Below are positions 2,383 through 20,571 of a DNA stretch of 33,459 nucleotides, piece by piece. The stretch lies in NCBI GenBank assembly GCA_022565805.1, contig JAIULZ010000032.1:1-33459 (forward strand). The letters are read 5' to 3'. Within the stretch, counting starts at the first letter, position 1. The number at the start of each line of letters is the position of its first letter. A model generated the notes under the pieces. It ran no database searches. It had not been told where the DNA came from and was given only the letters and a program-made list of their open reading frames with translations. The translations under genes were made by a program, and so were the position numbers. Origin of the DNA: Balneolales bacterium (GTDB lineage: Bacteria; Bacteroidota; Rhodothermia; Balneolales; Cyclonatronaceae).

Positions 2383-4377
2383 ATGAACATTGTTTACCGT
2401 CTGAGTCGCTTAGTATTTTTGAGCGCATGTATTCTTTTTGCTGATAAGGCAGATCTTTTCTCCCAAAACATGTCGTCAGATCAAACACAGAGCGAAGTAC
2501 GTCGCGGTGTCTTTGGCAATTTTTTTGATGATGTATCCCTGGACATCTACACTGGTTTTGGTAACTACAATGGAAATTTCAGCGAGCAGGGTTTTGATCT
2601 ACCATTGCCCCCTCGTGGCTTCAAATTTGCCGCAAATTTCTCAAAATCAATTTATTCTTTGCCTGAGTATAGCCTCGATTTAAGAGGTCGTTGGGGTATA
2701 GAATGGTTAAATTACTCTTCCGAGACATGGAACCGAAACCGACTTAGAGGTTTTGCCCAAAATACAAGAGGAGGATTTGTTCAGGCTAATGTCGTTAACA
2801 ACGCAATTGGCACCTCCCTCGGTCTTGGAGTAAATGTAAACCTATTCCGATCTGCATATATTGAGCCAAGCCTTGATTTCGGCTATTATTATCATAATCC
2901 ACGAACCGATGCATTTGTAAATGATGAAGGCGAACTTTTGAACAGACAGCCAGGTGCATCCGATCGTGGACAAAGCTCCTACAATAACTTTAGATTAAGA
3001 CAAAATAGTGGCGTTCTGGCAGAAGGTGAAACAATCCCGGCTTTTCTGCCCTCTCTTAACTTGGGTTTCAAGATTGGTGGCCAGATAATAGGTTATGATT
3101 TCTTTCTGCGCTACGACTATCACAATTTTCTTGAGCCGTGGTTTGATGGGATGAGTGATCAGGTTGGAAGATCAGGTGTATCAAATGCGTATTCATCTGC
3201 TACATTCGGAGTTTCACTGCCTCTTTCCCAAAGAGGTCCGCGTATGTCAAGAGAGCAGCAGATTAGAGAGCTTGCAACAATTGTGCAAACTGAAGAAGAT
3301 GCAACAGAAATAATGAATGCATCAGGCGGAAGACTCTTAGCAGCTAATGCAAGAGGTGTCCGTTTCAATGAGCTATCTCAACGCGTTGTATTTCATCAGG
3401 TTCCTCTTGATCCGGACAGTGTTATTGTTACAGAAATGGCAGAATTGCCTGGCTCAAACTTCATTATAGGACTTTCTGATGTAGATGAGCTCTCCATACA
3501 AGTTGCAGGTAAAAAGAGAATTTCAATCAATCCATTTAAAATGGATCGTACTGAAGTAACCAATCTTCAATACAGGGCATTTTTAATGTCTATGGGTGTA
3601 GATTTGGCAGCTGAAGAAAATATTACAGTAGATAGAGATCCCTTATCGGATGAGTTTAACATACAGCAAAAGTATACTTGGGAAGAGTTGCTCGCTCGTG
3701 CAGACTTAGCAGAGTTTCCTGAAAATTATGTGAATCCACCTGTTTTAGATAACGTAAATTATTTGTTACCAGACAAAGACAGCTGGATAAGAGACGGAAT
3801 GCATGATATTATACCTTATGAAAGATACTTTTTCGGAACTGAGTATCTCGACTATCCCGTAGTTGGAGTAAATTGGTATCAGGCTAAGTTATTTGCAGCA
3901 TGGGCAGACAAAAGATTGCCTACCGAAACAGAGTGGGAATATGCGGCAAAAAGTGGTGTATCTGGTCGTGTGTATCCATGGGATGGTCACCAAATACAAA
4001 GAAGAGATGGTACTTACCGTGCTAATTACCGACAGTCCAGAGGTGTTTTTGACCTTGACGGATTTGTACTGATGGCACCTGTAGAGGCTTTTGCCGCAAA
4101 TGACTTTGGTTTATATCAAATGGCTGGTAATGTTGCAGAATGGGTTCTTGATTCATATAATCCATCTTATAATGTTCTTGACTCATTTGGATCGCTTAGC
4201 TTTGTGAGTCCATTTTATGTAAACCCAAGAGAAACCCGTAAGGTGCATCGTGGTGGTTCATGGAACTCATCTGAATTCTTTATAGGATCTGGTGTCAGAA
4301 ATTTCCAGGATAAGCATCGCGCAAGCCCCACTGTAGGTTTTAGATTAGCTCAATCTGTAGAGCAGACTATCAGATAA
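2383..4377 (+). CDS. gldK: GldK/PorK-type T9SS ring protein with N-terminal beta-barrel-like domain
   Basis: A 664-residue exported protein. A signal sequence (about 1-28) is followed by about 250 residues (35-285) rich in alternating aromatic/small residues and Gly/Asn turns (e.g. SLDIYTGFGNYNG, FDFGYYYH-like segments), as in an outer-membrane beta-barrel. A linker with a helical stretch (288-350) leads to an FGE-sulfatase domain (about 355-660) with the hallmarks RTEVTNLQYRAF, RLPTETEWEYAA, MAGNVAEWV and HRGGSWN. GldK, with GldN, forms the periplasmic ring of T9SS. The only cysteine is C16, within a possible lipobox LSAC, so the FGE active-site cysteines are absent and the domain is structural. 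Canonical GldK is about 450-500 residues and has no barrel. PorP precedes porK in P. gingivalis, so this resembles a PorP-PorK fusion. GldJ is the alternative name for the C-terminal half. Confidence 0.85.
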   Translation: MNIVYRLSRLVFLSACILFADKADLFSQNMSSDQTQSEVRRGVFGNFFDDVSLDIYTGFGNYNGNFSEQGFDLPLPPRGFKFAANFSKSIYSLPEYSLDLRGRWGIEWLNYSSETWNRNRLRGFAQNTRGGFVQANVVNNAIGTSLGLGVNVNLFRSAYIEPSLDFGYYYHNPRTDAFVNDEGELLNRQPGASDRGQSSYNNFRLRQNSGVLAEGETIPAFLPSLNLGFKIGGQIIGYDFFLRYDYHNFLEPWFDGMSDQVGRSGVSNAYSSATFGVSLPLSQRGPRMSREQQIRELATIVQTEEDATEIMNASGGRLLAANARGVRFNELSQRVVFHQVPLDPDSVIVTEMAELPGSNFIIGLSDVDELSIQVAGKKRISINPFKMDRTEVTNLQYRAFLMSMGVDLAAEENITVDRDPLSDEFNIQQKYTWEELLARADLAEFPENYVNPPVLDNVNYLLPDKDSWIRDGMHDIIPYERYFFGTEYLDYPVVGVNWYQAKLFAAWADKRLPTETEWEYAAKSGVSGRVYPWDGHQIQRRDGTYRANYRQSRGVFDLDGFVLMAPVEAFAANDFGLYQMAGNVAEWVLDSYNPSYNVLDSFGSLSFVSPFYVNPRETRKVHRGGSWNSSEFFIGSGVRNFQDKHRASPTVGFRLAQSVEQTIR

Positions 4378-4399: not shown

Positions 4400-4423
4400 A
4401 GGAGTCCTCATATGAGGACTCTT
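4400..4423 (+). terminator. Perfect palindromic hairpin between gldK and gldL
   Basis: Positions 4402-4421 form a perfect 20-base palindrome (half-site GAGTCCTCAT) that could fold into a 7-8 bp hairpin with a tight loop, extended by two further pairs. No U-tract follows (CTTACCC), so it is not a classic intrinsic terminator. It lies 25 bases after the gldK stop and about 180 bases before gldL. It could be an attenuator, an mRNA-stabilising or processing element that sets gldK:gldLMN ratios, or a dimeric-protein operator. Confidence 0.45.
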
Positions 4424-4604: not shown

Positions 4605-5312
4605 ATGGCTTCAAACTTAGAAGATAAATTAAGACCAGATAGTATACCTATTTACTACACCTATAAAGCCTTCAAATGGGATCAATTCTTTGTAGGATTA
4701 TTTGGTGCACTAGCAATCTTTGGCGTACTAATGAAGCTTTGGGATGAGCCCTTTTGGGGAGCTGTAGGTCCTGAGGCTGCAGATTGGTTGTACAAAACAT
4801 TTATGCCTATTGGATTTTTAGGTGAGTGTGTTGTATTCATAATTATGGGATTCATTAAGGGCGATAATTACGTAGAAGTATATCCTACCAAGGAAATGAA
4901 AGAGCAAATCAAGTCTGAATCTGAATCTCTTACTCCTGGTGGTGTAACTGTAAATATGCAATTACCGGATTCTCTTAAGCAACTCGTCGAGAAAAAGCTA
5001 ACTTCACAAATTGATGTTAAAATGCAGGAGCTCAGCAAGGCATTGACCGTTGATTTTGAAAAAACACAAAAGCTTCTTGCACAAACTAATCAAGCTTATA
5101 CAGGTCTTAATGAAGTCGGTCAGTCGTTGTCTTCTTTTTCTAAGCACTTAATTGAAATCGACAAGAAACTTCAGGCGTTTGATAAACTTGATGCATCAGT
5201 GCTATCTAATGGAACAGCCAAAATGTCTAAGCAACTTGATTCTGCTAATGCAGGGATTCAAAAGTTTGAAACTGAGCTTTCCAGAGTAGCTGATAAGTTT
5301 AAGAAGTTTTAA
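4605..5312 (+). CDS. gldL: GldL, T9SS/gliding motor inner-membrane protein
   Basis: A 235-residue protein with two TM helices (about 27-45 and 67-84) and a long cytoplasmic, coiled-coil-prone C-terminal region (about 100-235), the GldL/PorL layout. GldL forms the pentameric stator around the GldM dimer and uses proton motive force to drive secretion. A glutamate sits inside TM2 (E74, in GFLGECVVF), the same relative place as the essential TM2 glutamate of Flavobacterium johnsoniae GldL, so motor function is probably retained. The N-terminus is about 20 residues longer than in Flavobacterium. The ATG is preceded by GGAG at good spacing. It follows gldK after 227 bases and precedes gldM by 125 bases. 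Confidence 0.92.
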   Translation: MASNLEDKLRPDSIPIYYTYKAFKWDQFFVGLFGALAIFGVLMKLWDEPFWGAVGPEAADWLYKTFMPIGFLGECVVFIIMGFIKGDNYVEVYPTKEMKEQIKSESESLTPGGVTVNMQLPDSLKQLVEKKLTSQIDVKMQELSKALTVDFEKTQKLLAQTNQAYTGLNEVGQSLSSFSKHLIEIDKKLQAFDKLDASVLSNGTAKMSKQLDSANAGIQKFETELSRVADKFKKF

Positions 5313-5437: not shown

Positions 5438-6598
5438 ATGGCAGGTGGTGGTGGTAGCGCAATTGTAATGTTGCGACTGAATTTTATGACAGCAATCTAT
5501 CTTCCTATTCTTCTATACGCTATGTCTACGTATGAGCTTGAGCAGGGTGCGCTTGTTATTAGCGAAAGGAATTTAGATGCGGTAGCTGTACCCGTGGAGA
5601 GATCTATTTTTTCCGGAGATACATTCGAAGCACAAATATTTTACAGACCTGTTCCTCCGCCACCTACAATGGCAGGCGAAAGAGCTGGTGGTGTAGAGTC
5701 TCTTGCTAACCCAATAGTAAGGATCACAGAAGGACCTGAAGGACTTTTCTTTGATAACGAGACACGAAGATTTGTATATAATTCTGAAAGAGCATTTGTC
5801 GGAATACCGGAAGATGTGTTCGAAAGAGAATTTACTTTCAGGGGTGTCGCAATTTTGGAATCGGTTGTTGAAGGTGAGCAGTTCGAGAAACCTTTTGAAC
5901 AATCTTTCAGAGTTCGAAGGCCAAATGTTCAGGTAATTAGTAATGCTCCACAGCGTTTGGTAAGAGATAGTAGAAATGACCTAACGTTTATGGTTTCCGG
6001 AGTACCGGAGGGAGATATAACTTTAACTGAATCATCCAGGAATCAAACAGTGAGGGGTAATAGACTAACTTGGACTCCTGCTGGTGATACAACAACAGTT
6101 ACTATTTTCAGGCGAAATGCAGCTGGTGAAAATGTACCTATTGATACCAGAGGATTCTCTGTTGTACCCCCGCCTCCTCCAGCACTTAATGTGCGTAGAG
6201 CTGATGGTGGTGGGTTAATCGCTCCTACTGAAGTAGTAAACCCTTTTAATGACATGCTTGAGCTTGTTATATCCCCAGACAGGCAGTATTTTAATGATTT
6301 CCCTGATGATGCAAGGTATGAATTAGCTGGTGTAGGTTTAGCATTTGCTATTCCAGGTCAGGCCACTACTACAGCTGAAGTACCCCAAAGCGCTATACCT
6401 TTTAACAGACAAAGAAGCCAGCAGCTTGGAGAATTTGTATACGGACCATTTCGTTTAGCTGATCTTAACAACAGAATTACTGGTCAGGTTAATCAGGTAA
6501 GTATATTTGTTCAGGATGTAAATAGGGTTAACTTTGAAAATAGGAGAATTCGTCAAGAAGATGGATTTGCCAATAACTTTGCTCTCAGAACTCGGTAA
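5438..6598 (+). CDS. gldM: GldM, T9SS motor/periplasmic shaft, short form
   Basis: A 386-residue GldM/PorM. It begins MAGG like canonical GldM. R13 precedes a TM helix (about 15-31), with the same R-to-YL spacing as R9...Y17-L18 of F. johnsoniae GldM, so the motor arginine appears conserved. Directly after the TM comes beta-rich sequence: a D2-like domain (about 35-165), a D3-like domain ending in FSVVPPPPPALNV (about 166-250), and a D4-like domain (about 265-386). The roughly 190-residue helical D1 domain that normally follows the TM is missing, which explains the length deficit against the usual 510-520 residues. GldM spans the periplasm and transmits rotation from GldL to the GldK/GldN ring. 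It is co-directional with gldL and gldN. Confidence 0.9.
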   Translation: MAGGGGSAIVMLRLNFMTAIYLPILLYAMSTYELEQGALVISERNLDAVAVPVERSIFSGDTFEAQIFYRPVPPPPTMAGERAGGVESLANPIVRITEGPEGLFFDNETRRFVYNSERAFVGIPEDVFEREFTFRGVAILESVVEGEQFEKPFEQSFRVRRPNVQVISNAPQRLVRDSRNDLTFMVSGVPEGDITLTESSRNQTVRGNRLTWTPAGDTTTVTIFRRNAAGENVPIDTRGFSVVPPPPPALNVRRADGGGLIAPTEVVNPFNDMLELVISPDRQYFNDFPDDARYELAGVGLAFAIPGQATTTAEVPQSAIPFNRQRSQQLGEFVYGPFRLADLNNRITGQVNQVSIFVQDVNRVNFENRRIRQEDGFANNFALRTR

Positions 6599-6614: not shown

Positions 6615-7676
6615 ATGAACATGTTCTCACGTTTAACTAAATCAACTTTAATAGTTGCACTCTGCACATTATTGAGCTTTGAATATGCTCAGGCACAATT
6701 TACACCTGTATCAGATGGTGTAAACTGGCAAAGAACTGTGCGGATAATGAGTACAATAACACCATTTGATTCATTTAATGAAATGGCTTTATTCGACAGA
6801 CTCGCCGATAATGTAAGTCAGGAGTTAAAAGTATCGAGGGAGTTTGTTCATTACGCAAACATCACGAATAACTTTTGGGAAGTACTTCGTGATTCCATTA
6901 ATGAGCAGATCAAAGATGGCAACATCAATGTGTATAGTTTAAGACCGAGTGAAATAAGGGGTCAGGAAGATATTTACATTAAAGACGAGCAAATTCCTCA
7001 TGAAGAACTCACCCAGTTTCTTACAAATAACTTTCAACGATATGTGCAGAATACATTTACAGGTGTAGCTGCGCAAAATGCTCCTTTTTTCTTTAGTGAA
7101 GCTCAGGCTAATCTTGCAAGGATATCACAAGCGCAACCAAATTTCGAAAACCTGATTGATATTGATCTATTTCAGATTGAATTAATCATATTTAATGATG
7201 AAACAGGATTTGGAATCAAACCTACAAAACTGATCTTTTCGACCGCATTATACAACACGCAGTTTGATTACGAGATTAACGAATTTGTAGAACAGTTTGA
7301 GCCTCAGCTTGGTTTTCTGATCGATCTCACCGAACAACAGTCAGTGCAAATGCTTAGCGAAATGGGGATTCAATTTAGCGGTGAATATAACATGATGTCA
7401 TTCTATGATTTGATCACGTTATTTCATTACGATTTTAGATACTTTAGCGTTAGTAATCAGGGTCTGAGATCTAATGTTACAAGATTTATTGATAGGTACG
7501 AAATTGAGTCTCTTCGTGAATCTACAAAGAATTATTTCAATGACTTGATTTTTACATTCATCTATGGTCAAGTACCGAATTGGTGGAGTGATAATGGACG
7601 TGGTGGTATTACTAATGGCTTATTTGAAATCAGTGAGACCTATCGCGAAGCTGTAGAAAATGCTCCCGAAGAATAG
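6615..7676 (+). CDS. gldN: GldN/PorN, T9SS periplasmic ring protein
   Basis: A 353-residue exported protein from the ATG at 6615. The frame is open from an ATG at 6534, but that start would overlap gldM by 65 bases and place 27 polar residues before an obvious signal peptide (basic FSRLTK, hydrophobic STLIVALCTLLSF, cleavage after AQAQ), so 6615 is chosen, 16 bases after the gldM stop. GldN associates with GldK to make the large periplasmic ring of T9SS. Assignment rests on operon position directly after gldM, length (family about 300-350), a signal peptide, and the conserved flavour of the early motif DGVNWQRTVRIM and of IYIKDEQI. It is the last gene of the operon, with a terminator 33 bases downstream. 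Confidence 0.88.
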   Translation: MNMFSRLTKSTLIVALCTLLSFEYAQAQFTPVSDGVNWQRTVRIMSTITPFDSFNEMALFDRLADNVSQELKVSREFVHYANITNNFWEVLRDSINEQIKDGNINVYSLRPSEIRGQEDIYIKDEQIPHEELTQFLTNNFQRYVQNTFTGVAAQNAPFFFSEAQANLARISQAQPNFENLIDIDLFQIELIIFNDETGFGIKPTKLIFSTALYNTQFDYEINEFVEQFEPQLGFLIDLTEQQSVQMLSEMGIQFSGEYNMMSFYDLITLFHYDFRYFSVSNQGLRSNVTRFIDRYEIESLRESTKNYFNDLIFTFIYGQVPNWWSDNGRGGITNGLFEISETYREAVENAPEE

Positions 7677-10387: not shown

Positions 10388-12790
10388 ATGACAAACTCTC
10401 ATATTCCACATCATCATAATGGCAACGGCCATAATAATGGATATAATGGTGAATTTAATCGCCGGCGAAATAATGGTGTTAAACAAACCAAGCAGGATGA
10501 TGATGATATCATAGATTTAAGTAAACTTTTCGCCATAGCCTGGAGATATAAGTGGATATTGGTGATTTGTGTGATGGCAGGTGGTATCGCATCATACGTT
10601 GTCGCCAATAATATGACACCTATCTATAAGAGTGAAGGGCGGCTGCTCATACAAGAACTTCGAAACCGTTATTCTTATGCGGGTTCTGATATTGGCTCTT
10701 TGATGACTACGGCTTTCGGAGTTGGTATGGGTTCTACTATTGCAAACGAACTTGAAGTTATACGCTCACGAAGGTTTATGGAGAGAGTTGCGGATAACTT
10801 TCTTAGTAAGGTAAATGAAGACTTAGATACATATCCACTACTGGATGGTGGGTTAGATGAAGATGAAAATCAGTTATTAGCAAGCAAAGAGCAAATAGCA
10901 GGGCGGTTACTTAGGGGAGTAGTAATTACTCGTACTGATCGTGAATCAGATGTTGTGAATTTAGCATTTGAGTCTCCTTCAAATGAAGAAGCAGCATTGG
11001 TTGTAAATCTCGTAATAGATACTTACAACGAGTTTTCTACTGTTGAAAACAGAAGAATGGCAAGAGACGGTCTTAACTTTCTTCAAAAGGAAAGAAATGA
11101 AGTGTACTACGCCTTGCAACAAAGTGAAGAAGCACTCAGAGACTTCATGAATCAGGAAGGATTGGTACAACTTGAAGAGCAATCAAGACAGTTGATTAAT
11201 ATTTTGGCAGGGCTTGAAACTGAAAAAAGAACTGCCGAAGTCGAAAGGTCTGCAGTATTGGCTGCTATTGGAAACTATAGAAATGAGCTCAATAGCATTC
11301 AGCCTGGATTAGGTGAGCAAATTACACGTAGTTATGCACCCAAAATAAACAGACTGCAGTTCGAAATATCTGAGTTGTATACAGAAAGAGAACTATTGCT
11401 CTCCCGAAACCCGATACTAATCGATCAACCTCAAATTGAACCGCGATTAGCAGAGATTGAAAGAAGAAAAACAGATTTGGAGAGCAGAGTTCGTGATGTA
11501 GTAAATGAATTGCTTGAACAGGATGAGCGTTTCTTAGGATTTTTGGGAAGTTTTGATGGTAATCTTGTTAGTCGTTTATCCGATTTAAGGAAAGACTTAC
11601 TGCAACTTGAGGTAAGGGAGCAGCAGCTAGGTGCACAAATATCGGTTATTAGCGATAAGATCCTTGTTCTGGAGCGTGAATTCGATAGACTTCCAGACAA
11701 TATGATCACTTTTGCGCGGCTAAGAAGAGCGGTGGATTTAAATACAGAATTATTCGTTTTACTTGAACGACAATCGGCAGAAGTAGCCATTTGGGAACAA
11801 ACACAAAGTGGTTATGGCCGGCTTGTAGATTATGGATTAGTTTCGCAAAACCCGGTTAAACCCAGAAAAATGCTGATTATGCTAATAGGTCTTTTCATGG
11901 GTGGGATGTTTGGTGTAGCGATTATGTTTATAAAAGAATTGTCGCAAACAACCATTATGAGTGTAGAAAAGTTGCGTGAAAAAGGGCTGCAGATTTTGGC
12001 AGTAGTACCGGATTTAACAGAATTAATCAAAAAGAATTTTAATGGGGAGAAGCATGTAACGGTAAGAGGAATGTCGATCAGTACAGATATGATAACATTT
12101 CTGGATCCCATTTCTCCGGCAAGTGAAAGCTACAGAAGGCTCTACAATAATATTATCTATTCTAAACCAGATAATCCATACAGAACGCTTATTACTACAA
12201 GTGCGGGGCAGGGTGAAGGTAAAACGACAACTTTATCTAATCTGGCAGTAATAATGGCAGAGGCAGGTCATAAAGTAGTTATAGTAGATTGTGATTTCCG
12301 CAGACCAAGAATACATCGTGAGTTTGGATTTATCCAGGAGAATGGCGTCTCTGAATGGTTATTTAATGAATTAGAGTTGGATGAAGTAGTAAAAGAGTCG
12401 GTCGTTCCTAATATAGATGTAATTACGGCCGGTAAGAAGGTGCAGAACCCGGCGAATTTGGTACAAAGCGTAAGGATGAAAGAGCTAATCAAGCAGCTCA
12501 GAGCAAGATATGAGTACGTATTAATAGATACGCCACCCTACGGTATTATTACAGATGCAGCTCCGCTAATGAGAGAAGCTGATGGAGTTATCCTTATAAC
12601 TCGCTTTGGCACAACAAGACATAGCGATGTAGATCATACTATTGAGAACCTTCAGAATATTAATATTGACATTGTAGGAACAGTACTCGGTGCTTATGAT
12701 CATGAAAAGTCTACCGGGTATTATTATTACAACGATTATTACAGATATTCATACACCAGTTATTCGAAATATGTTGAAGATAAAGCATAA
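10388..12790 (+). CDS. wzc: Wzc-like polysaccharide co-polymerase with BY-kinase domain
   Basis: An 800-residue inner-membrane protein of the PCP-2a class, which controls assembly and export of capsule or exopolysaccharide. Order: an odd His/Asn/Gly-rich N-terminus (1-30), an acidic run (DDDD), TM1 (about 55-73), a Wzz-type periplasmic domain with long coiled coils (about 75-490), TM2 (about 495-516), and a cytoplasmic tyrosine autokinase. The Walker A motif is SAGQGEGKTTT (K612), followed by Walker A' VVIVDCDFRR and Walker B YVLIDTPPYG. The C-terminus has ten tyrosines in under 20 residues (from about 777), the usual autophosphorylation cluster. It is the first gene of the glycan locus. The cognate phosphatase Wzb is not in the window. 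Confidence 0.95.
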   Translation: MTNSHIPHHHNGNGHNNGYNGEFNRRRNNGVKQTKQDDDDIIDLSKLFAIAWRYKWILVICVMAGGIASYVVANNMTPIYKSEGRLLIQELRNRYSYAGSDIGSLMTTAFGVGMGSTIANELEVIRSRRFMERVADNFLSKVNEDLDTYPLLDGGLDEDENQLLASKEQIAGRLLRGVVITRTDRESDVVNLAFESPSNEEAALVVNLVIDTYNEFSTVENRRMARDGLNFLQKERNEVYYALQQSEEALRDFMNQEGLVQLEEQSRQLINILAGLETEKRTAEVERSAVLAAIGNYRNELNSIQPGLGEQITRSYAPKINRLQFEISELYTERELLLSRNPILIDQPQIEPRLAEIERRKTDLESRVRDVVNELLEQDERFLGFLGSFDGNLVSRLSDLRKDLLQLEVREQQLGAQISVISDKILVLEREFDRLPDNMITFARLRRAVDLNTELFVLLERQSAEVAIWEQTQSGYGRLVDYGLVSQNPVKPRKMLIMLIGLFMGGMFGVAIMFIKELSQTTIMSVEKLREKGLQILAVVPDLTELIKKNFNGEKHVTVRGMSISTDMITFLDPISPASESYRRLYNNIIYSKPDNPYRTLITTSAGQGEGKTTTLSNLAVIMAEAGHKVVIVDCDFRRPRIHREFGFIQENGVSEWLFNELELDEVVKESVVPNIDVITAGKKVQNPANLVQSVRMKELIKQLRARYEYVLIDTPPYGIITDAAPLMREADGVILITRFGTTRHSDVDHTIENLQNINIDIVGTVLGAYDHEKSTGYYYYNDYYRYSYTSYSKYVEDKA

Positions 12791-12844
12791 GCTAACTCAA
12801 TAAAGTTCGATTATCAGAATCTCCTTATTTTTTATTAAAGATTG

Positions 12845-13459
12845 ATGTCTAATTATGCATTTCAAAATATGAAAAGCAATAAGTCTAATTCCTTCATAAA
12901 ATTAGCAAAATGCTTTTTGTCAATTATAGCGCTAGCTACTGCTATAACTTTTGTTTCAAATAAAAGTGTTACGGCTCAGAGTCAAGGTCAAACCGGAAGG
13001 GATGTTCCGGTAAGCCAAATGTTTCGAATGGCAGAAGGATTGGTTAGAATAGCAGAGCCGGGACAAATGGCAGACACACTTAATATTTGGGGTGATGTAA
13101 CTTTACCGGGAAGATATGTAGTGCCAAGAAATACTAATGTAGCAGACCTTATTTCCTATGCTCGCGGTCCTGTAAGGCTTATTACGCAAGAGACTCAAAT
13201 AGATTGGTCGAGAGTAAGATTAGAATTAAGTATTTCCAGATTCGACCCTGATCAAGGCGAGCAGGTTGTAAATATAAGGTACAGTTATAATGAACCGCTT
13301 CCGGAAGAATTTAGGAATATAATGCTACAAAATAACGATCTTATAGCACTGCAAGTAAGAAGGAAACCAATATTTCTTGATTATGTGAGAGCTATAGCCC
13401 CTGTTATTACACTTATTCTTTCGTCTTTACTTCTATACGACAGAGTAAGAGGAAACTAA
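12845..13459 (+). CDS. Small SLBB-domain protein with signal peptide and C-terminal TM
   Basis: A 204-residue protein from the ATG at 12845; an in-frame TTG directly before it and an ATG at 12869 are alternatives. A basic, hydrophobic signal sequence ends at SVTAQ. The middle part (about 70-165) has the SLBB pattern, with LNIWGDVTLPGRYVVPRNTNVADLISYARG resembling the soluble ligand-binding beta-grasp of Wza-type exporters. A hydrophobic segment (about 183-198, APVITLILSSLLLYD) ends the chain. It lies 54 bases after wzc, so it likely helps Wzc-dependent glycan export. It has no Poly_export domain and is about half the size of Wza, so it is not a complete outer-membrane channel. Confidence 0.8.
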   Translation: MSNYAFQNMKSNKSNSFIKLAKCFLSIIALATAITFVSNKSVTAQSQGQTGRDVPVSQMFRMAEGLVRIAEPGQMADTLNIWGDVTLPGRYVVPRNTNVADLISYARGPVRLITQETQIDWSRVRLELSISRFDPDQGEQVVNIRYSYNEPLPEEFRNIMLQNNDLIALQVRRKPIFLDYVRAIAPVITLILSSLLLYDRVRGN

Positions 13460-13634
13460 GAAAATCTCTTAGCAATGGGGAATTACCTTACCAAAATTAT
13501 AAGTTAATTTCAAAAAACTAGCCCTATATCAGAATTTCCAAGTCGTATATAGACGTTAGATTAGCCAAATAAACGATTGATTGCATCTTGGATGGATAGG
13601 GATAAATACCAACAGTACTCTAAGTTAATATATT

Positions 13635-14573
13635 GTGAGAGAAAAAAGATTCGCACTTACAGGAGTAGCCGGTTACATAGCTCCAAGACATCTTCAGGCT
13701 ATTTATGATACAGGAAATAAGCTTGTTGCCGCTATGGACCCTTTCGATTCTGTTGGAATTTTAGATCGCTATTTCCCGCAAGCTTCTTTTTTTACTGAAT
13801 TCGAGCGTTATGACAGACATCTCGAAAAACTTAGGAGAGTAGGTGATGGCGCAAGAATTGATTATATAAGTATTTGCTCGCCTAATTATTTGCATGATGC
13901 TCACATAAGACAAGCTTTGCGAATCGGTGCTCATGCCATTTGTGAAAAGCCACTTGTGCTAAATCCATGGAATTTAGATGCACTACAGGAAATGGAAGAA
14001 GAAACTGATGCTAAAGTATTTAATGTACTCCAACTACGCACTCACCCACGCTTATTAGCTCTCAAAGAAAAAGTAGACAAAGAAAAAATTGAAAATCCTG
14101 GAAAAAGGTATAGGATAAAGCTACAGTACATTACGTCCAGAGGTCTTTGGTATAAACATTCATGGAAAGGTTCTATGGAAAAGTCTGGAGGAGTAGCTAC
14201 CAATATTGGCATCCATTTCTTTGATATGCTTATATGGATGTTTGGCAATGTAGACAATTGCAGGGTACTGGAGAGCAGTAGCGATACTATATCTGGTGAA
14301 CTTGAGCTAAAAAATGCAGACGTTGAATGGATACTTTCTATAGATCCGGCTAATTTACCCCCACAAGTTATAGATAAAGATATTAAAACTTACCGCTTAA
14401 TTACTGTTGATGAAGACGAGATTGAGTTTAGCGGCGGTTTTGTGGATCTGCACACCAGAGTCTACGAAGAAACTCTGCAGGGGCGCGGGTTTACAATGGC
14501 TGATGCGCGTCCATCTATTGAACTTGTATATAGGTTAAGAAATATGCCTGTACAATCGAATATTATAGTATAG
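13635..14573 (+). CDS. wbpB: WbpB/WlbA-like UDP-GlcNAc(A) 3-dehydrogenase
   Basis: A 312-residue Gfo/Idh/MocA oxidoreductase, close in length and pattern to WbpB/WlbA (about 315). The NAD-binding start LTGVAGYIAPRHLQAI is nearly the same as in Pseudomonas WbpB, as are SICSPNYLHDAHI, ICEKPLV (catalytic K105), the block GVATNIGIHFFDML (H194), and the late DLHTRVYEETLQGRG. WbpB oxidises C3 of UDP-N-acetylglucosaminuronic acid on the way to 2,3-diamino-uronic acids. The start is GTG, and its position agrees with the family N-terminus. The partner genes wbpA, wbpE and wbpD are not in the window. In P. gingivalis this pathway makes the sugar that links T9SS cargo to A-LPS, so the nearby gld genes are notable. 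Confidence 0.92.
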   Translation: MREKRFALTGVAGYIAPRHLQAIYDTGNKLVAAMDPFDSVGILDRYFPQASFFTEFERYDRHLEKLRRVGDGARIDYISICSPNYLHDAHIRQALRIGAHAICEKPLVLNPWNLDALQEMEEETDAKVFNVLQLRTHPRLLALKEKVDKEKIENPGKRYRIKLQYITSRGLWYKHSWKGSMEKSGGVATNIGIHFFDMLIWMFGNVDNCRVLESSSDTISGELELKNADVEWILSIDPANLPPQVIDKDIKTYRLITVDEDEIEFSGGFVDLHTRVYEETLQGRGFTMADARPSIELVYRLRNMPVQSNIIV

Positions 14574-14612
14574 AAGTGTCTGCATAATGTTATTCCTGTA
14601 ATTAAAATAAGG

Positions 14613-14652
14613 GCAGGTAAGTAAAACTTGAAATAACCTTTTATTCACCTGC
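14613..14652 (+). promoter_or_regulatory. Hairpin covering the translation start region of the deacetylase-like gene
   Basis: GCAGGTAAGTAAAA pairs with TTTTATTCACCTGC across a 12-base loop, giving 13 pairs (one G-U) and one mismatch. It ends one base before the TTG start codon at 14654. The ribosome-binding region would be buried in the stem, so it may keep translation low. Lacking a U-run after the stem, it is a poor terminator. Confidence 0.45.
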
Positions 14653-14653
14653 T

Positions 14654-15538
14654 TTGGGAGACTCGATAACAAAATATAAAAAGCTTCTTCAGGCATTGGT
14701 AAAAAGTGGATATACTCCAGTTGCAGAACAAGAGCTTTTAATCAAAAATAACCCGTTTGCACGATTGGTATCTATCGGTCATCGTTTAGATTCAAATTCT
14801 AATCTTTGTTTAAAAATTGCCGAAGCAGATAAACAGTATGGTTTCAAGAATACATATTATGTAAGAAAAATTCGGGATCGTTTTCCTCAGAACCTAATAG
14901 AAGGCATACAAATTAACGGTCAAAGAACCGGATACCTTTACAACGAATTAAATGAGTGTAGTGGCGACCCTCACTTAGCAGTAATGCGTTTTCAAAGAAG
15001 CATTGAGCAGTTAAGACTTGCTGCAACAGTAGAATCTATAGCAACTTTAAGGGGATTTTTTGTAAAATACGACAACAGACAAATATGGAAGTTTTACGAT
15101 CCGGTAAGGTTTGGGGTAAGTGCAGATTTTTCATTGCTGAGCACCGATACAAAATGTCTTAACTTGAAGCACGAACCTGATGGCTGGACTTCCGAAAAAA
15201 GCCTGGATTTAATACTTTCGTTTGTAAAAGGCAGAGAGGCTTTTATTCGCCAAAAGTATTCAGATTCTAAATACAAGTCTAATAATTCGGGGAAAAAACC
15301 TCAAATAAAGATATCAAATAATGCTTCAGCTGATGGTTTTGAGGTAAGGGAACATGACAATTCTGAAATAATTAGTTCCTTTAAAAATACCAATTCCCTT
15401 ATTAAAGCTTTAGAAAAAGGTGAATTGGCTTCAAAGCTCTATCTCCAAACAAACCCGGCTTTTTGGCCGTCTGGTTTGGTAGATTGGCAGAGGCTTCTTT
15501 TTATGAGAATTTCAAAAAAGCTTTCTAATATGTTGTAG
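14654..15538 (+). CDS. Degenerate polysaccharide-deacetylase (WbmS-like) homologue, likely non-catalytic
   Basis: A 294-residue protein starting at TTG, the only standard start after an in-frame stop at 14618. It follows the WbmS-like polysaccharide-deacetylase pattern: YKKLLQALVKSGY, then IGHRLDSNSNLCLKIAEAD (family HDVD region), GFKNTYYVR, NGQRTGYLYNEL (family GHEIGYHYE), VESIATLRGFFVKYDNRQIW (family IcmHGsPlSkyDNRdLW). The usual metal ligands are changed: HDVD is HRLD (D44 position is R), GHEIGYH is GQRTGYL (both His lost), and the HG of the third motif is LRG. The fold is probably kept but metal-dependent deacetylation is unlikely. A C-terminal extension (about 205-294) is of unknown type. 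It sits between wbpB and the sugar transferase. Family assignment is by remembered pattern, not by search. Confidence 0.7.
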   Translation: MGDSITKYKKLLQALVKSGYTPVAEQELLIKNNPFARLVSIGHRLDSNSNLCLKIAEADKQYGFKNTYYVRKIRDRFPQNLIEGIQINGQRTGYLYNELNECSGDPHLAVMRFQRSIEQLRLAATVESIATLRGFFVKYDNRQIWKFYDPVRFGVSADFSLLSTDTKCLNLKHEPDGWTSEKSLDLILSFVKGREAFIRQKYSDSKYKSNNSGKKPQIKISNNASADGFEVREHDNSEIISSFKNTNSLIKALEKGELASKLYLQTNPAFWPSGLVDWQRLLFMRISKKLSNML

Positions 15539-15878
15539 GGATATACAAAAGAAAGTTATTATTAGCTTTCTTTAACAACGTCTGGCTTTTGTTAAGTAGC
15601 TGATGCTAGTTAAAAAAGGAGAAAATTATTTTGTTTAAGTTTTCCGAAATAGAAGGACTTTGTTTATTATAGGCTAATCTGCTTTATTTTAAGAAAAACC
15701 ATATCTAAACATTATTGTAATTGTTTAGTGTTATACCGGATTGAGACTGCACATATATTGCACCATACCATTACTCTCTGTTTAAAGGGATCTAAAAATC
15801 GTTTATATATAAATCATCAATGACGACTTTTAACAATTCATCATCTACAAAAGTTTAACCTCCTAAATCATCACAGAA
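15539..15878. other. Non-coding spacer inside the glycan locus
   Basis: About 340 AT-rich bases. A short hairpin AAAGAAAG/CTTTCTTT (15548-15573) follows the preceding stop by ten bases but has no T-run, so it is at best a weak terminator. The length suggests a separate promoter for the downstream sugar-transferase gene. No gene or RNA is recognised. Confidence 0.4.
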
Positions 15879-16946
15879 TTGGCAGAGCTATTAACAAAAA
15901 AACAAATATCACGGAGTAAAGACTCGGGTATAAATAGCGTGAGTGAATTGGATCATTTTATATCCAGATATGCCGATGTTGATTCTCCCTATACCTATAG
16001 ATTTAATTCAAGTAATCCGTCTAATCTCGACTTTGTTAAGTCTGAAATGTTGCTTACCGTTATAAATTACACAAGAATAAACGAATTCAGGTATATAAAT
16101 AAGTTTTTTGAACGTGTAAATGAAGAGCTTGAACAAGGTGGATTGTATATAGGCTGTGTCGAAACTAAGGAGATGAGGAAAAAGCGTGTTATTAATAAAG
16201 TCCATCCTTTATTGAGCTATCCATTTTATACCATTGATTTTATTTATAAAAGAATATTACCCAAGCTTCCCGTTATCAAGAAAGCATATTTTGCGGTTAC
16301 AGATGGTAAAAACCGCGTAGTATCAATGACTGAAACTCTTGGACGGCTTGTTTCTTGTGGTTTTAAAGTTATAGATACTCATCAAGATGGTTATCTTACT
16401 TGGTTTGTAGCACAGAAAGAGTGTGAGCCAAAGTTCGATATGGATGCTACATATGGTGCTATTGTGGGGCTTAATAGAATTGGTAAAGATGGTAAGCTTA
16501 TTAAAGTTTATAAAGTTAGAACGATGCATCCCTATTCTGAGTACATTCAAGATTTTATTTTTGAGAAAAACGATCTAAAGAAAGGTGGAAAATTCGATCA
16601 GGACTTCAGAATTACAAATTGGGGTAAACTTTTCCGGAAACTTTGGATAGATGAATTACCAATGTTTTATAATTTACTTAAAGGTGATGTAAAGCTTGTC
16701 GGAGTAAGACCGCTAAGCAGACAATACTTTAATTTATACCCAAGTGAATTTCAGCAGCTTAGGACAAAATATAAGCCGGGCCTCATTCCTCCTTTTTATC
16801 ACGATTTACCCGAGTCTCTCGATGAAATTATTGAGTCTGAAAAGAGATACCTCGAGTCTTATGATAAAGCTCCACTAAGAACAGACTTTAACTATTTTGT
16901 GAAGTCTTTGTACAATATTATTTTTAAAAAAGCCCGTAGTAGTTAG
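15879..16946 (+). CDS. Bacterial sugar transferase (PGT-like) with methyltransferase-like N-terminus
   Basis: A 355-residue protein starting at TTG. The C-terminal half (about 195-350) is the bacterial sugar transferase domain: NRIGKDGKLIKVYKVRTM (normally RvGknGkpF.iyKFRTM), WIDELPMFYNLLKGDVKLVGVRPLS with the catalytic Asp-Glu pair at 258-259, and KPGLIPPF. The family's N-terminal re-entrant membrane helix is absent. Residues about 55-180 (GGLYIGCVETKEMRKKRVI ... LGRLVSCGFKVID ... WFVAQK) resemble the C-terminal half of a class I methyltransferase without its SAM-binding loop. Proteins of this layout occur in Bacteroidota. It probably loads the first sugar phosphate onto undecaprenyl phosphate, though its membrane attachment is unclear. 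Confidence 0.85.
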   Translation: MAELLTKKQISRSKDSGINSVSELDHFISRYADVDSPYTYRFNSSNPSNLDFVKSEMLLTVINYTRINEFRYINKFFERVNEELEQGGLYIGCVETKEMRKKRVINKVHPLLSYPFYTIDFIYKRILPKLPVIKKAYFAVTDGKNRVVSMTETLGRLVSCGFKVIDTHQDGYLTWFVAQKECEPKFDMDATYGAIVGLNRIGKDGKLIKVYKVRTMHPYSEYIQDFIFEKNDLKKGGKFDQDFRITNWGKLFRKLWIDELPMFYNLLKGDVKLVGVRPLSRQYFNLYPSEFQQLRTKYKPGLIPPFYHDLPESLDEIIESEKRYLESYDKAPLRTDFNYFVKSLYNIIFKKARSS

Positions 16947-17014
16947 TTTTATGATACTTTTTTAAATGAAATGACCCACCTGATCAGGACAGCAGGGGTA
17001 AATAAATAAAATTA

Positions 17015-18031
17015 GTGGAAATCAGTCCGAAACCTAAAATTGCTCTGATATCCTCCTGGGATACCGAATTCGTTAAAGACGATTTTGAAATCCTATCGAA
17101 TTATTACGACATTTCTTTATACCTGACACGCGAAAAAGGCTTTTTCTCGAAAGAGTTTGTATCAATTATTTCCGAAGCACGAATCATACTTGTTTGGTTT
17201 GCTGCCGTTCACGCTATTCCACCCGCTTTATGGTCATTAATAACAGGAAAGCCTCTTCTTGTGTTTAGTGGTGGTTACGATGTAGCTTCTATTCCTGAAA
17301 TAGGATATGGAAATAGAAATCATCGTATAAAAAAGCAAATAACACGCTTTGTCCTCGCCCGAGCTACAAAGATTATAGTACAGTCTCATTTTTCATTGAG
17401 GGAAATAGAATCTTGCTACCCTCAACATAAGTATAAACTTAGCTATATCCCTCATAGAATAAGCATCCCCGATAATTTTTTGAATAAACCAATTTCTTTG
17501 AAACGGGAGAAAATTCTGTTAACGGTAGCGCTCTTAAATCCGCTTAACTATAAAAGAAAAAAAATAGAGCTAATCAAGCAAATAGCATCAGAATTACCGG
17601 ACTACTCCGTAATTCATATTGGCAAAATTTTTGACGAACAGAAGATGCAGTTCGATAAAAACTTGCCTGTAAATATGAAAAGCGTTGGTTTTGTAAAAGC
17701 AGACACACTATGGGACTACTATAATAGTGCAACTGCTTTGCTACTTCCTTCCTGGCATGAAGGCTTCGGAATAACTGCTGTAGAGGCAGCAGCAGCAGGC
17801 TGCGTGCCATTAATAAGTGGCGCAGGAGCTCAGAAAGAAGTTACCATGGGATATTCCATAAAACCAACAGAAGAAACGGTTAAAAGCTGGGTGAAATCTA
17901 TAAAAAAGATGGAAATTGATGTAGATGATACCTATAGAAAGAAAATGGCCAAGGAGTTAAGGAAATTCTACGCAAGTGAGCTTCGATTAACATCTTTGAG
18001 GGAATTGATTAGCAGCATTATAGAGGAATAG
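17015..18031 (+). CDS. GT4-family glycosyltransferase
   Basis: A 338-residue GT-B fold enzyme. The GTG start is placed just before the first Rossmann strand (KPKIALISSWD), which supports it. The C-terminal donor-binding region shows LLPSWHEGFGITAVEAAAAGCVPLIS, the E-x7-E type motif of family 4 transferases that use nucleotide sugars with retention of configuration. There is no TM helix, so it acts at the cytoplasmic face on a lipid-linked acceptor. The sugar is unknown. It lies 68 bases after the sugar transferase and 138 bases before the flippase. Confidence 0.88.
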   Translation: MEISPKPKIALISSWDTEFVKDDFEILSNYYDISLYLTREKGFFSKEFVSIISEARIILVWFAAVHAIPPALWSLITGKPLLVFSGGYDVASIPEIGYGNRNHRIKKQITRFVLARATKIIVQSHFSLREIESCYPQHKYKLSYIPHRISIPDNFLNKPISLKREKILLTVALLNPLNYKRKKIELIKQIASELPDYSVIHIGKIFDEQKMQFDKNLPVNMKSVGFVKADTLWDYYNSATALLLPSWHEGFGITAVEAAAAGCVPLISGAGAQKEVTMGYSIKPTEETVKSWVKSIKKMEIDVDDTYRKKMAKELRKFYASELRLTSLRELISSIIEE

Positions 18032-18104
18032 TATATCTTCTGGAGAAATACATCCATATTATTTATAATCGGGGTAGATTAATCATTTTGGTAATATCGA
18101 ATAT

Positions 18105-18126
18105 CTTGTATCTCTAAGATAACAAG
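18105..18126 (+). promoter_or_regulatory. Small hairpin upstream of the flippase gene
   Basis: CTTGTATCT and AGATAACAAG pair over a CTA loop, with one bulged base, giving a 9-bp stem 43 bases upstream of the TTG start of the flippase gene. There is no U-run, so it may be a leader structure or a chance hairpin. Confidence 0.2.
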
Positions 18127-18169
18127 GTCATATACAATATATCAGTACCCATTTTGAGACCAAAAACTG

Positions 18170-19501
18170 TTGGCTACGTATTCTAAAACGAACATCCTCA
18201 AATCCTCAGCTTGGATAGCCGCCTATCGGATGATTCGTATGGTGCTTGCATTTGTTGTTGGTATTTTTGTTGCCAGATATTTGGGCCCCTCGTTGTATGG
18301 ACAGTTAAGCTATTCTGTAGCTTTAGTTATGATTTTTCTTGGGGTAGCAGGACCCGGAATGAAGGATGTGATAACGCAAAAGCTAGATGAATGTAAAGAT
18401 GAAACCGATAAGGCGGGATTGCTTTATGCGTCATTCAGGTTAATGTTTATTATTAATGCTGCTTTATTAGTAGCAACTGTGCTAGTAGCCATTCTTTTGA
18501 GGCCAGATGATAGATTAATTTGGGCACTTGTAGCCATCATTGGCCTCGGAAACGTGTTCCGCGCTTGTGAATCTTTTGAGCTTTATTTTTTGTATCGGCT
18601 TGAAATGAGCCGAACAGTACTAATTCAGGCAGGTAGTTTTTTAATTACAGCTATCCTAAAACTTATTTTAATTTGGCTGGCTGCAGATCTCATTTGGTTC
18701 GGCATTGCGGTTGGAGCAGAATTGTTAATAACAGGTGCAGGATTCTGGCTAACTTATAAAACACGCAAAAATCAGAATAAGCCAATATTGGTGTGGTCTT
18801 TATATTACCGAAAAGTAATTCATGTTTTAAAAATTTCCGTACCAGCTATTGGAGCTCTTGGCTTTACTCTAATGCTGTTTAAGGCAGATCAGGTTATGCT
18901 AGGCTGGCTTGCAGGCGATGCAGCTACCGGTTTTTATGCCATTGCAGCACAGTTTTCTGAGTATTGGCTTTACCTTGCTGCTGCTGTCGTTACTTCTATG
19001 TATCCGAATTTGCTCAATGCAAAAAATAAAGATTTGTCTGAAGGCACTTCAGGTTTTAAAAAACAGTTTATTACACTTTGCAGTTTGCTGATTTATTCAG
19101 CTATACTGCTACAATTGCTCGTCTACTTTACAGGAAATCATATAATAATCTTTTTTCTTGGAGACAGCTTTGTAAACTCAGCCGAAATTCTCCGGGTACA
19201 CATCTGGTCTCTTGTTTTTATTTTTTTACTCGAAGCCCTTAAAAAATGGTTTGTTATTGAAAATCTGTTGAGTAAATATTTTACTATTATGGCAATAGCC
19301 GCTATTTCTAATATTGGTATAAACTTGATCTTAATACCGGAATTTGGTGGCATAGGCGCCGCATGGGCTACCGTTTTTGCATACGGCCTTGCTGGTTTTG
19401 CGGGGGTTTTTATTTTTAAAAGTTCGAGAGAAGCCGGTTATCTGATACTGAAAGGAGCTCTTCATCCATGGAAAAAAATAAGCCGCACATTCTATTCTTA
19501 G
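18170..19501 (+). CDS. Wzx-type polysaccharide flippase (MATE/MVF superfamily)
   Basis: A 443-residue membrane protein with about 12 hydrophobic segments. The N-terminal block, ending in FVARYLGPSLYGQLSYS, is the signature of polysaccharide biosynthesis (RfbX/Wzx) flippases. Other family segments are AGPGMKDVITQ and LLNAKNKD. It would flip undecaprenyl-pyrophosphate oligosaccharide across the inner membrane. The start is TTG, as the next in-frame ATG is at residue 21, inside the first helix. Its end overlaps the start of the next glycosyltransferase by 34 bases, so the two are translationally linked. Confidence 0.92.
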   Translation: MATYSKTNILKSSAWIAAYRMIRMVLAFVVGIFVARYLGPSLYGQLSYSVALVMIFLGVAGPGMKDVITQKLDECKDETDKAGLLYASFRLMFIINAALLVATVLVAILLRPDDRLIWALVAIIGLGNVFRACESFELYFLYRLEMSRTVLIQAGSFLITAILKLILIWLAADLIWFGIAVGAELLITGAGFWLTYKTRKNQNKPILVWSLYYRKVIHVLKISVPAIGALGFTLMLFKADQVMLGWLAGDAATGFYAIAAQFSEYWLYLAAAVVTSMYPNLLNAKNKDLSEGTSGFKKQFITLCSLLIYSAILLQLLVYFTGNHIIIFFLGDSFVNSAEILRVHIWSLVFIFLLEALKKWFVIENLLSKYFTIMAIAAISNIGINLILIPEFGGIGAAWATVFAYGLAGFAGVFIFKSSREAGYLILKGALHPWKKISRTFYS

Positions 19502-20571
19502 CAGATGGCGGATCTGTTCATACACAACGTTGGGCTCTGAGTTTAAAAAAAGAAGGTTTTAAAGTTTCCCTTCTATCCCGCACTTTTTCAGATACTGATG
19601 TTTTTATACAGAATAGTGTGGCTATTGCCCCTTTTCTACCCGACGGAAAATGGACATGGTTAACGGCACGGTCTAAGGTGAAAAGATGGTGTATAGAACA
19701 GCAAGTAGACATCGTTCATGCGTTTTACGCCACCAATTACGGGCTGTTGATGGCTGTGAGTGGCTTTAAGCCAAATATATTAACTGTAATGGGAACAGAT
19801 GTTTTTTCTTATACAGAAAAGTCCTGGCTGCATGAGAAAAGCACGGCCTGGATTCTTAGCAAGGTAACCGTTATAACTGGTGCAAGTGAAGCGCTATGTA
19901 AAAGAGTTATGACCATTCGTAATAGACCGAATCATGTTCTTAAAATACCATTTGGTATCGATACCCAAAAATTTGCACCTTTTGATAATAAGCTAAAATC
20001 TGCCCATAGCTTCAATAACGATTTTGTGAAAGTTATAGCTGTAAGGCATTTGGAATTTAAATATGGTCTGGATATTCTCGTAAAAGCCATAGCCCTCGTA
20101 CAACTTAAAGCAGGTGATATCAAAATTTCTGTGGATATATATGGTGAGGGCAAAGAATCGAAGGAGCTTCAGGACTTAATAGCACATTTTGGTCTTGAAG
20201 AAATCGTGAATTTAAAGGGAAAAGTAAAGCCCGAAAATGTACCCGGTATTTTGCGAAATGCAGAAATTTTTGTAGCACCAAGCAGAGAAGAAAGTTATGG
20301 TGTGGCAATCTTAGAAGCATCGGCATGTGGGCTACCGGTTGTTGGCTCTAACGTTGGAGGAATTCCTGAAACCATTGAAGATGGTGTTACCGGGATGCTA
20401 TTCGAAACTGAAAACCCCAGCCAACTCGCAGATATTTTAATCGAGCTTAGCCGGAATCGTGATAAACGAATCGGTATGGGGCGGGAAGGGAGACAGAGAG
20501 TTCTCCGGCTGTTTGATCAGGAAGTAGCTATAAAAAAAATGGCTGATCTATACCTATCATTAAAAAAATGA
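19468..20571 (+). CDS. GT4-family glycosyltransferase
   Basis: A 367-residue GT-B enzyme with a clear family 4 layout. The N-terminal domain starts KPHILFLADGGSVHTQRWALSL and has the loop VHAFYATNYG. The linker NHVLKIPFGIDTQKF is typical. The donor domain holds APSREESYGVAILEASACGLPVVGS (E-x7-E) followed by NVGGIPETIEDGVTG. It is a cytoplasmic retaining transferase; donor and acceptor are unknown. It overlaps the flippase gene by 34 bases and is the last plus-strand gene of the locus. No terminator is visible in the 65-base convergent gap after it. Confidence 0.93.
   Translation: MEKNKPHILFLADGGSVHTQRWALSLKKEGFKVSLLSRTFSDTDVFIQNSVAIAPFLPDGKWTWLTARSKVKRWCIEQQVDIVHAFYATNYGLLMAVSGFKPNILTVMGTDVFSYTEKSWLHEKSTAWILSKVTVITGASEALCKRVMTIRNRPNHVLKIPFGIDTQKFAPFDNKLKSAHSFNNDFVKVIAVRHLEFKYGLDILVKAIALVQLKAGDIKISVDIYGEGKESKELQDLIAHFGLEEIVNLKGKVKPENVPGILRNAEIFVAPSREESYGVAILEASACGLPVVGSNVGGIPETIEDGVTGMLFETENPSQLADILIELSRNRDKRIGMGREGRQRVLRLFDQEVAIKKMADLYLSLKK

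Follow-up and report, generated by a model that had tools for sequence, protein, structure and literature searches.

The ring subunit of the type IX secretion system (T9SS), GldK/PorK, has been described as a moving ring or track that is driven by GldL/M and carries covalently attached PorG (PMC12635249). In F. johnsoniae, PorG is an eight-stranded outer-membrane protein with a C-terminal tail that is disulfide-bonded to Cys343 of GldK, and SprF bonds to the same GldK cysteine (PMC12635249). The PorG-reactive residue of P. gingivalis PorK is Cys356, part of a conserved R-G-C-F motif; it lies on the face of the ring towards the membrane, as does the lipidated N-terminus of PorK (PMC12635249). 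The attachment of PorG and SprF to the moving GldK/PorK track by disulfide bonds was reported in 2025 and described as having no counterpart among other mechanical systems (PMC12635249).

A GldK gene with a predicted N-terminal barrel

The window, a 33459 nt stretch of Balneolales DNA (GenBank accession number JAIULZ010000032.1), was found to include a single open reading frame at 2383-4377 (+ strand) that has an ATG start and no internal stop and encodes 664 aa. The product consists of a signal peptide, a ~240-residue domain resembling an outer-membrane barrel, a linker and a PorK/GldK domain, and the gene heads a gldK-gldL-gldM operon. The open frame, the domain matches and the K-L-M order together confirm the original prediction that a T9SS motor operon here begins with a barrel-GldK fusion. 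The features are as follows:

2383..2466, + strand: signal peptide (fusion residues 1-28), of signal peptidase I type, with A-x-A/S-Q-like ends before Q28 in homologues
2518..3237, + strand: barrel domain (residues ~46-285), a probable PorG relative, from amphipathicity and from hhalign comparison with PorG versus controls
3238..3429, + strand: linker (residues 286-349, ~65 residues), cysteine-free, from the fusion alignment and the cysteine list
3430..4350, + strand: GldK/PorK domain (residues 350-656), sulfatase-modifying-enzyme fold, from PF03781, TIGR03525 and PorK PDB chains
4012..4014, + strand: codon for T544, in the column of PorK Cys356 (R-G-C-F), from the PorK and fusion alignments; the cysteine is absent
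4605..5312, + strand: gldL, motor stator, 235 aa; sub-threshold match to GldL_N PF22827 (E 4.6e-4), found in exactly the fusion-type genomes
5438..6598, + strand: gldM, motor shaft, 386 aa; sub-threshold match to TIGR03517 (E 1e-8), with the family profile matching PorM PDB chains (E 7.6e-8)
6615..7676, + strand: fourth gene of the operon, placed where gldN is expected; taken as GldN from its position only

Residues 350-656 matched the FGE-sulfatase family PF03781 (E 2.1e-44) and the GldK/PorK model TIGR03525 (E 1.5e-59; 202 bits, which does not reach the curated equivalog cut-off of 350), and a profile of the fusion alignment matched the solved P. gingivalis PorK chains in the PDB (entries such as 9mzu and 9ots) at E ~1e-51. 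At the sequence level, homology of this domain to PorK/GldK is thus clear. The fusion shares with PorK/GldK the fold, the position at the head of the K-L-M operon and, presumably, a role in the periplasmic ring, but differs in that an outer-membrane barrel replaces the lipidated N-terminus, the cysteine of the R-G-C-F motif is missing and the score falls under the curated GldK cut-off.

The predicted T9SS operon order stood for K, L and M, while the fourth gene can be called GldN by position only, as it gave no match to GldN or PorN in any of four approaches, though it is kept in all 10 loci. The order K-L-M-N was found in the window genome (G000) and in G002, G048, G052 and G011, and the order L-M-N-K in G004, G005 and G008. 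One genus, represented by G000/G001/G002 and G004/G005, includes both arrangements, and the proteins have diverged. Between the fusion gene and gldL there is a perfect 20 nt palindrome (4402-4421; GAGTCCTCATATGAGGACTC) with a folding z of -2.5 and no T-run after it. Downstream of the motor operon lies a polysaccharide synthesis cluster (10388-20571) encoding a Wzc-like tyrosine kinase, a sugar transferase, a flippase and glycosyltransferases.

Distribution of the fusion in the order

The same architecture was sought in related genomes and was found in nine genomes of the order. The full-length fusion is present in eight (the window genome, G002, G052, G048, G011, G004, G005 and G008), with 36-48% identity among the aligned fusions, and in G018 it is split over two contigs, the pieces overlapping in protein. 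In a tenth genome, G001, the fusion gene is cut at the end of a 4140-base contig. The window genome is spread over 290 contigs, which might favour the joining of two genes by a frameshift or misassembly, a possibility raised with the original prediction. However, recurrence of the in-frame fusion in eight assemblies, among them the single 4294247 bp contig of G005, which is listed in the genus of the window genome, excludes such an artefact for practical purposes.

A search with the barrel profile was positive for 9 of 129 genomes across the order, and each of the nine barrels is in a frame fused to GldK or, in G018, in a frame that reaches the contig end. No clearly unfused barrel was seen in the order, and a class-wide search with the same profile added no further genome. 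A search of genome contigs with the full protein returned GldK-type relatives, none of them with a barrel, and two scans of viral contigs likewise added no barrel.

Clear matches to the GldL profile were confined to 10 of 126 genomes of the order, and the GldM profile identified the same 10 (two more weak matches for each, E 2e-4 to 0.01, were treated as noise). These are the nine genomes with the barrel and G001, in which the gene is cut; therefore, every readable motor-bearing genome in the order has a fused GldK.

Each of the 60 relatives tested has the SprA translocon and at least 7 T9SS cargo tails. By the GldL and GldM profiles, neither motor protein is clearly present in 114-116 of the 126 genomes searched in the order, representing a T9SS with the motor unrecognised.

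Probable relationship of the barrel to PorG

When averaged over the alignment, residues 45-285 form eight segments of alternating hydrophobicity (approximately 45-62, 77-92, 93-111, 141-155, 157-173, 222-238, 236-251 and 268-284; the strand count is a reading of the profile), and the predicted beta-barrel-like character of the N-terminal part therefore stands. As short turns alternate with long loops between the strands, both ends of the barrel should face the periplasm, in agreement with the earlier expectation of an even strand number and a periplasmic C-terminus. Searches of Pfam and NCBIfam returned no family for residues ~46-285, a single-sequence AlphaFold model of residues 30-301 had a pLDDT of 31, too low to interpret, and the only PDB matches to the barrel profile were to FapF and were insignificant (E 0.15).

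The nine barrels were compared using hhalign with 24 trimmed PorG (DUF6089) proteins, giving a probability of 61% in local mode (177 columns) and 83% in global mode. The corresponding local and global values were 0.5 and 0.2% for reversed PorG, 0.1 and 0.3% for PorP/SprF (6 sequences), 0.8 and 0.1% for PorV-like proteins, 1.1 and 0.2% for OmpA-like barrels (control set of 2 sequences) and 0.2 and 0.1% for SPOR-barrels (control set of 2 sequences). As the control sets were smaller than the PorG set, the comparison was repeated 25 times with 6 random PorG sequences, which gave a median score of 27.2 (range 18.6-46.9) and a median probability of 7%, against scores of 17.7 for reversed PorG, 13.7 for column-shuffled PorG and 12.9 for PorP in matched 6-sequence controls. 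The profile signal between the barrel and PorG is therefore real but modest, and there is none with PorP/SprF.

Other comparisons with PorG were weaker. PF19573 (PorG, DUF6089) matches no barrel, a PorG model in plain HMMER gave marginal matches to the fusions (E 0.039 in G011 and 0.8 in G008), and an earlier hhalign run with 5 effective barrel rows and untrimmed PorG reached 11%. In an hhalign screen of all ORFs, part of which were scored, PorG members were concentrated among the highest ranks (Mann-Whitney p 5e-12), but this carries little weight because the background ORFs are mostly not barrels. As the signal is below threshold in ordinary HMMs and the median probability with six-sequence subsets is 7%, homology is probable rather than established, and on profile similarity the barrel is most likely PorG-related. 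It resembles PorG in its eight predicted strands, a similar length, a collinear profile alignment and GldK as partner, and differs in being joined at the gene level, in having no cysteine tail and in being too diverged for PF19573.

The original prediction had tentatively taken the barrel for PorP/SprF (PF11751, TIGR03519), also an outer-membrane barrel, from the porP-porK gene order, which would make the protein a PorP/SprF-GldK fusion with the barrel acting as an adhesin or type B cargo carrier. The gene for PorP/SprF does adjoin porK in many Bacteroidota, and SprF is bonded to Cys343 of GldK in gliding species (PMC12635249). However, the argument from gene order fails for identity because the barrel is shorter than PorP, which has 337-363 aa in the sister loci L091, L092 and L094, shows eight predicted strands and resembles PorG rather than PorP in profile. 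With an hhalign value of 0.1% against the 6 PorP/SprF sequences and no match of the fusion barrel to PF11751 or TIGR03519, that identity is unsupported and the PorP/SprF reading is very unlikely. The suggested check for a separate porP found no match to PF11751 in the window genome or its family.

A generic eight-stranded OmpA-like anchor, which would replace only the lipid anchor of GldK and hold the ring under the membrane, has more to recommend it, as the barrel is recognised by no curated family and the PorG family itself grades into the OmpA-like barrels of the order (PorG versus OmpA-like 96%, versus SPOR-barrel 96%). Nonetheless, the barrel gave 1.1% with OmpA-like and 0.2% with SPOR-barrels, from two-sequence control sets, against 61-83% with PorG. 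Furthermore, PF19573 revealed no separate PorG in either the window genome or its family, although this means none visible to that model, which misses the fusion barrel itself. The generic anchor is therefore judged unlikely, though deserving of real weight, and a PorG-related barrel is preferred.

Two further proteins, in which a PorG-like barrel precedes an extended linker and a C-terminus resembling SPOR, are encoded in the fusion-bearing genomes G011 and G018 (L110:1114-2490 and L111:658-2211).

Cysteines, proposed coupling to the ring and stoichiometry

PorK Cys356 aligns with T544 of the window protein, and in the other seven fusions the column of the reactive cysteine is occupied by S, E, E, K, N, N and N, within a well-conserved G-x-[FY]-x-x-N frame. 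Seven of the eight mature fusions have no cysteine, and the two in G011 are both in the GldK domain. The barrel and linker of the aligned fusions contain none, hence there is no periplasmic C-tail cysteine. The predicted status of C16 (2428-2430) as the sole cysteine of the window protein was correct, but the lipobox considered around it is not conserved, as 6 of the 8 aligned fusions have no cysteine in the signal region. Q28, at the likely cleavage site of signal peptidase I, does not vary. Replacement of the lipid anchor by the barrel, which had been suggested, is probable. The L, M and N proteins of the fusion genomes have zero or one cysteine each, and the scarcity of cysteine is thus in part a feature of the lineage; the fusion model requires the loss and agrees with it, but the loss does not independently prove the model. 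The cysteine-free sequence was accordingly rejected as stand-alone proof of disulfide replacement.

It is fairly probable that the window protein is a T9SS ring subunit with an N-terminal barrel of eight strands integral to the outer membrane, for which PorG is the most likely origin, and with a peptide bond in place of both the disulfide and the lipid anchor. The fusion would be exported through Sec, the signal would be removed by signal peptidase I and the barrel would be inserted by the BAM machinery. The GldK domain would then hang in the periplasm on the ~65-residue linker, for which a periplasmic location is predicted, and join the ring that GldL and GldM drive. Its peptide link to the barrel could serve as a permanent stand-in for the lipid anchor and for the disulfide that joins GldK/PorK to the PorG tail, with the barrel doubling as anchor and the linker taking the place of the PorG tail. 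The moving ring would in this way be coupled to a barrel dragged through the outer membrane and would power the SprA translocon. As the PorK N-terminus is on the membrane face, an N-terminal barrel is geometrically natural, though it leaves GldK at a place different from Cys356.

Release of the barrel by cleavage, or a function of its own for it, would make the fusion incidental to the ring, but the fusion has been kept across deep divergence (36-48% identity) and a released GldK would have no conserved lipobox to anchor it, making separate units highly improbable.

The fusion implies one barrel per GldK, unless unfused GldK co-assembles. GldK greatly outnumbers PorG in Flavobacterium (PMC12635249), and by analogy this would count against a PorG-GldK reading with a forced 1:1 ratio. 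The chances are evenly balanced that PorG and GldK are naturally fused here and that a peptide bond supplants the disulfide between ring and outer membrane as well as the lipid anchor, with one barrel per fused subunit. Published ring dimensions are 540 and 380 Å for a 33-mer (PMC12635249), which works out at ~51 and ~36 Å per subunit and would be enough space for an eight-stranded barrel. If every GldK is fused, the barrels in a ring would equal the ring subunits in number, making the stoichiometry testable.

No description of a barrel-GldK fusion, or of a Balneol* T9SS of this architecture, was found in the open-licence literature, and the fused architecture appears to be undescribed. If the reading is correct, a link hard-wired by gene fusion would provide independent evolutionary support for covalent force coupling, and it would follow that ring and barrel can be linked irreversibly and that GldK can do without the lipid anchor. 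The lineage with the fusion is one of salt-loving bacteria; for the soda-lake alkaliphile Cyclonatronum it may be speculated that the fusion is adaptive at high pH, a condition under which thiols and disulfides exchange rapidly.

An unfused lipoprotein paralogue of GldK was found in eight genomes (G000, G001, G002, G009, G011, G018, G048 and G052) and was not found in G004, G005 or G008. The copy in the window genome (G000:C70:12665-13483) shares ~53% identity with the fusion in the GldK domain, but is a short lipoprotein with a lipobox and no barrel, encoded away from the motor operon. In a tree of GldK domains, the fused copies lie apart from the unfused paralogues. The window-genome copy (L277:4483-5775) has an acidic, proline-rich tail, and its gene is ~1 kb from genes resembling those for Na+/H+ antiporter subunits.
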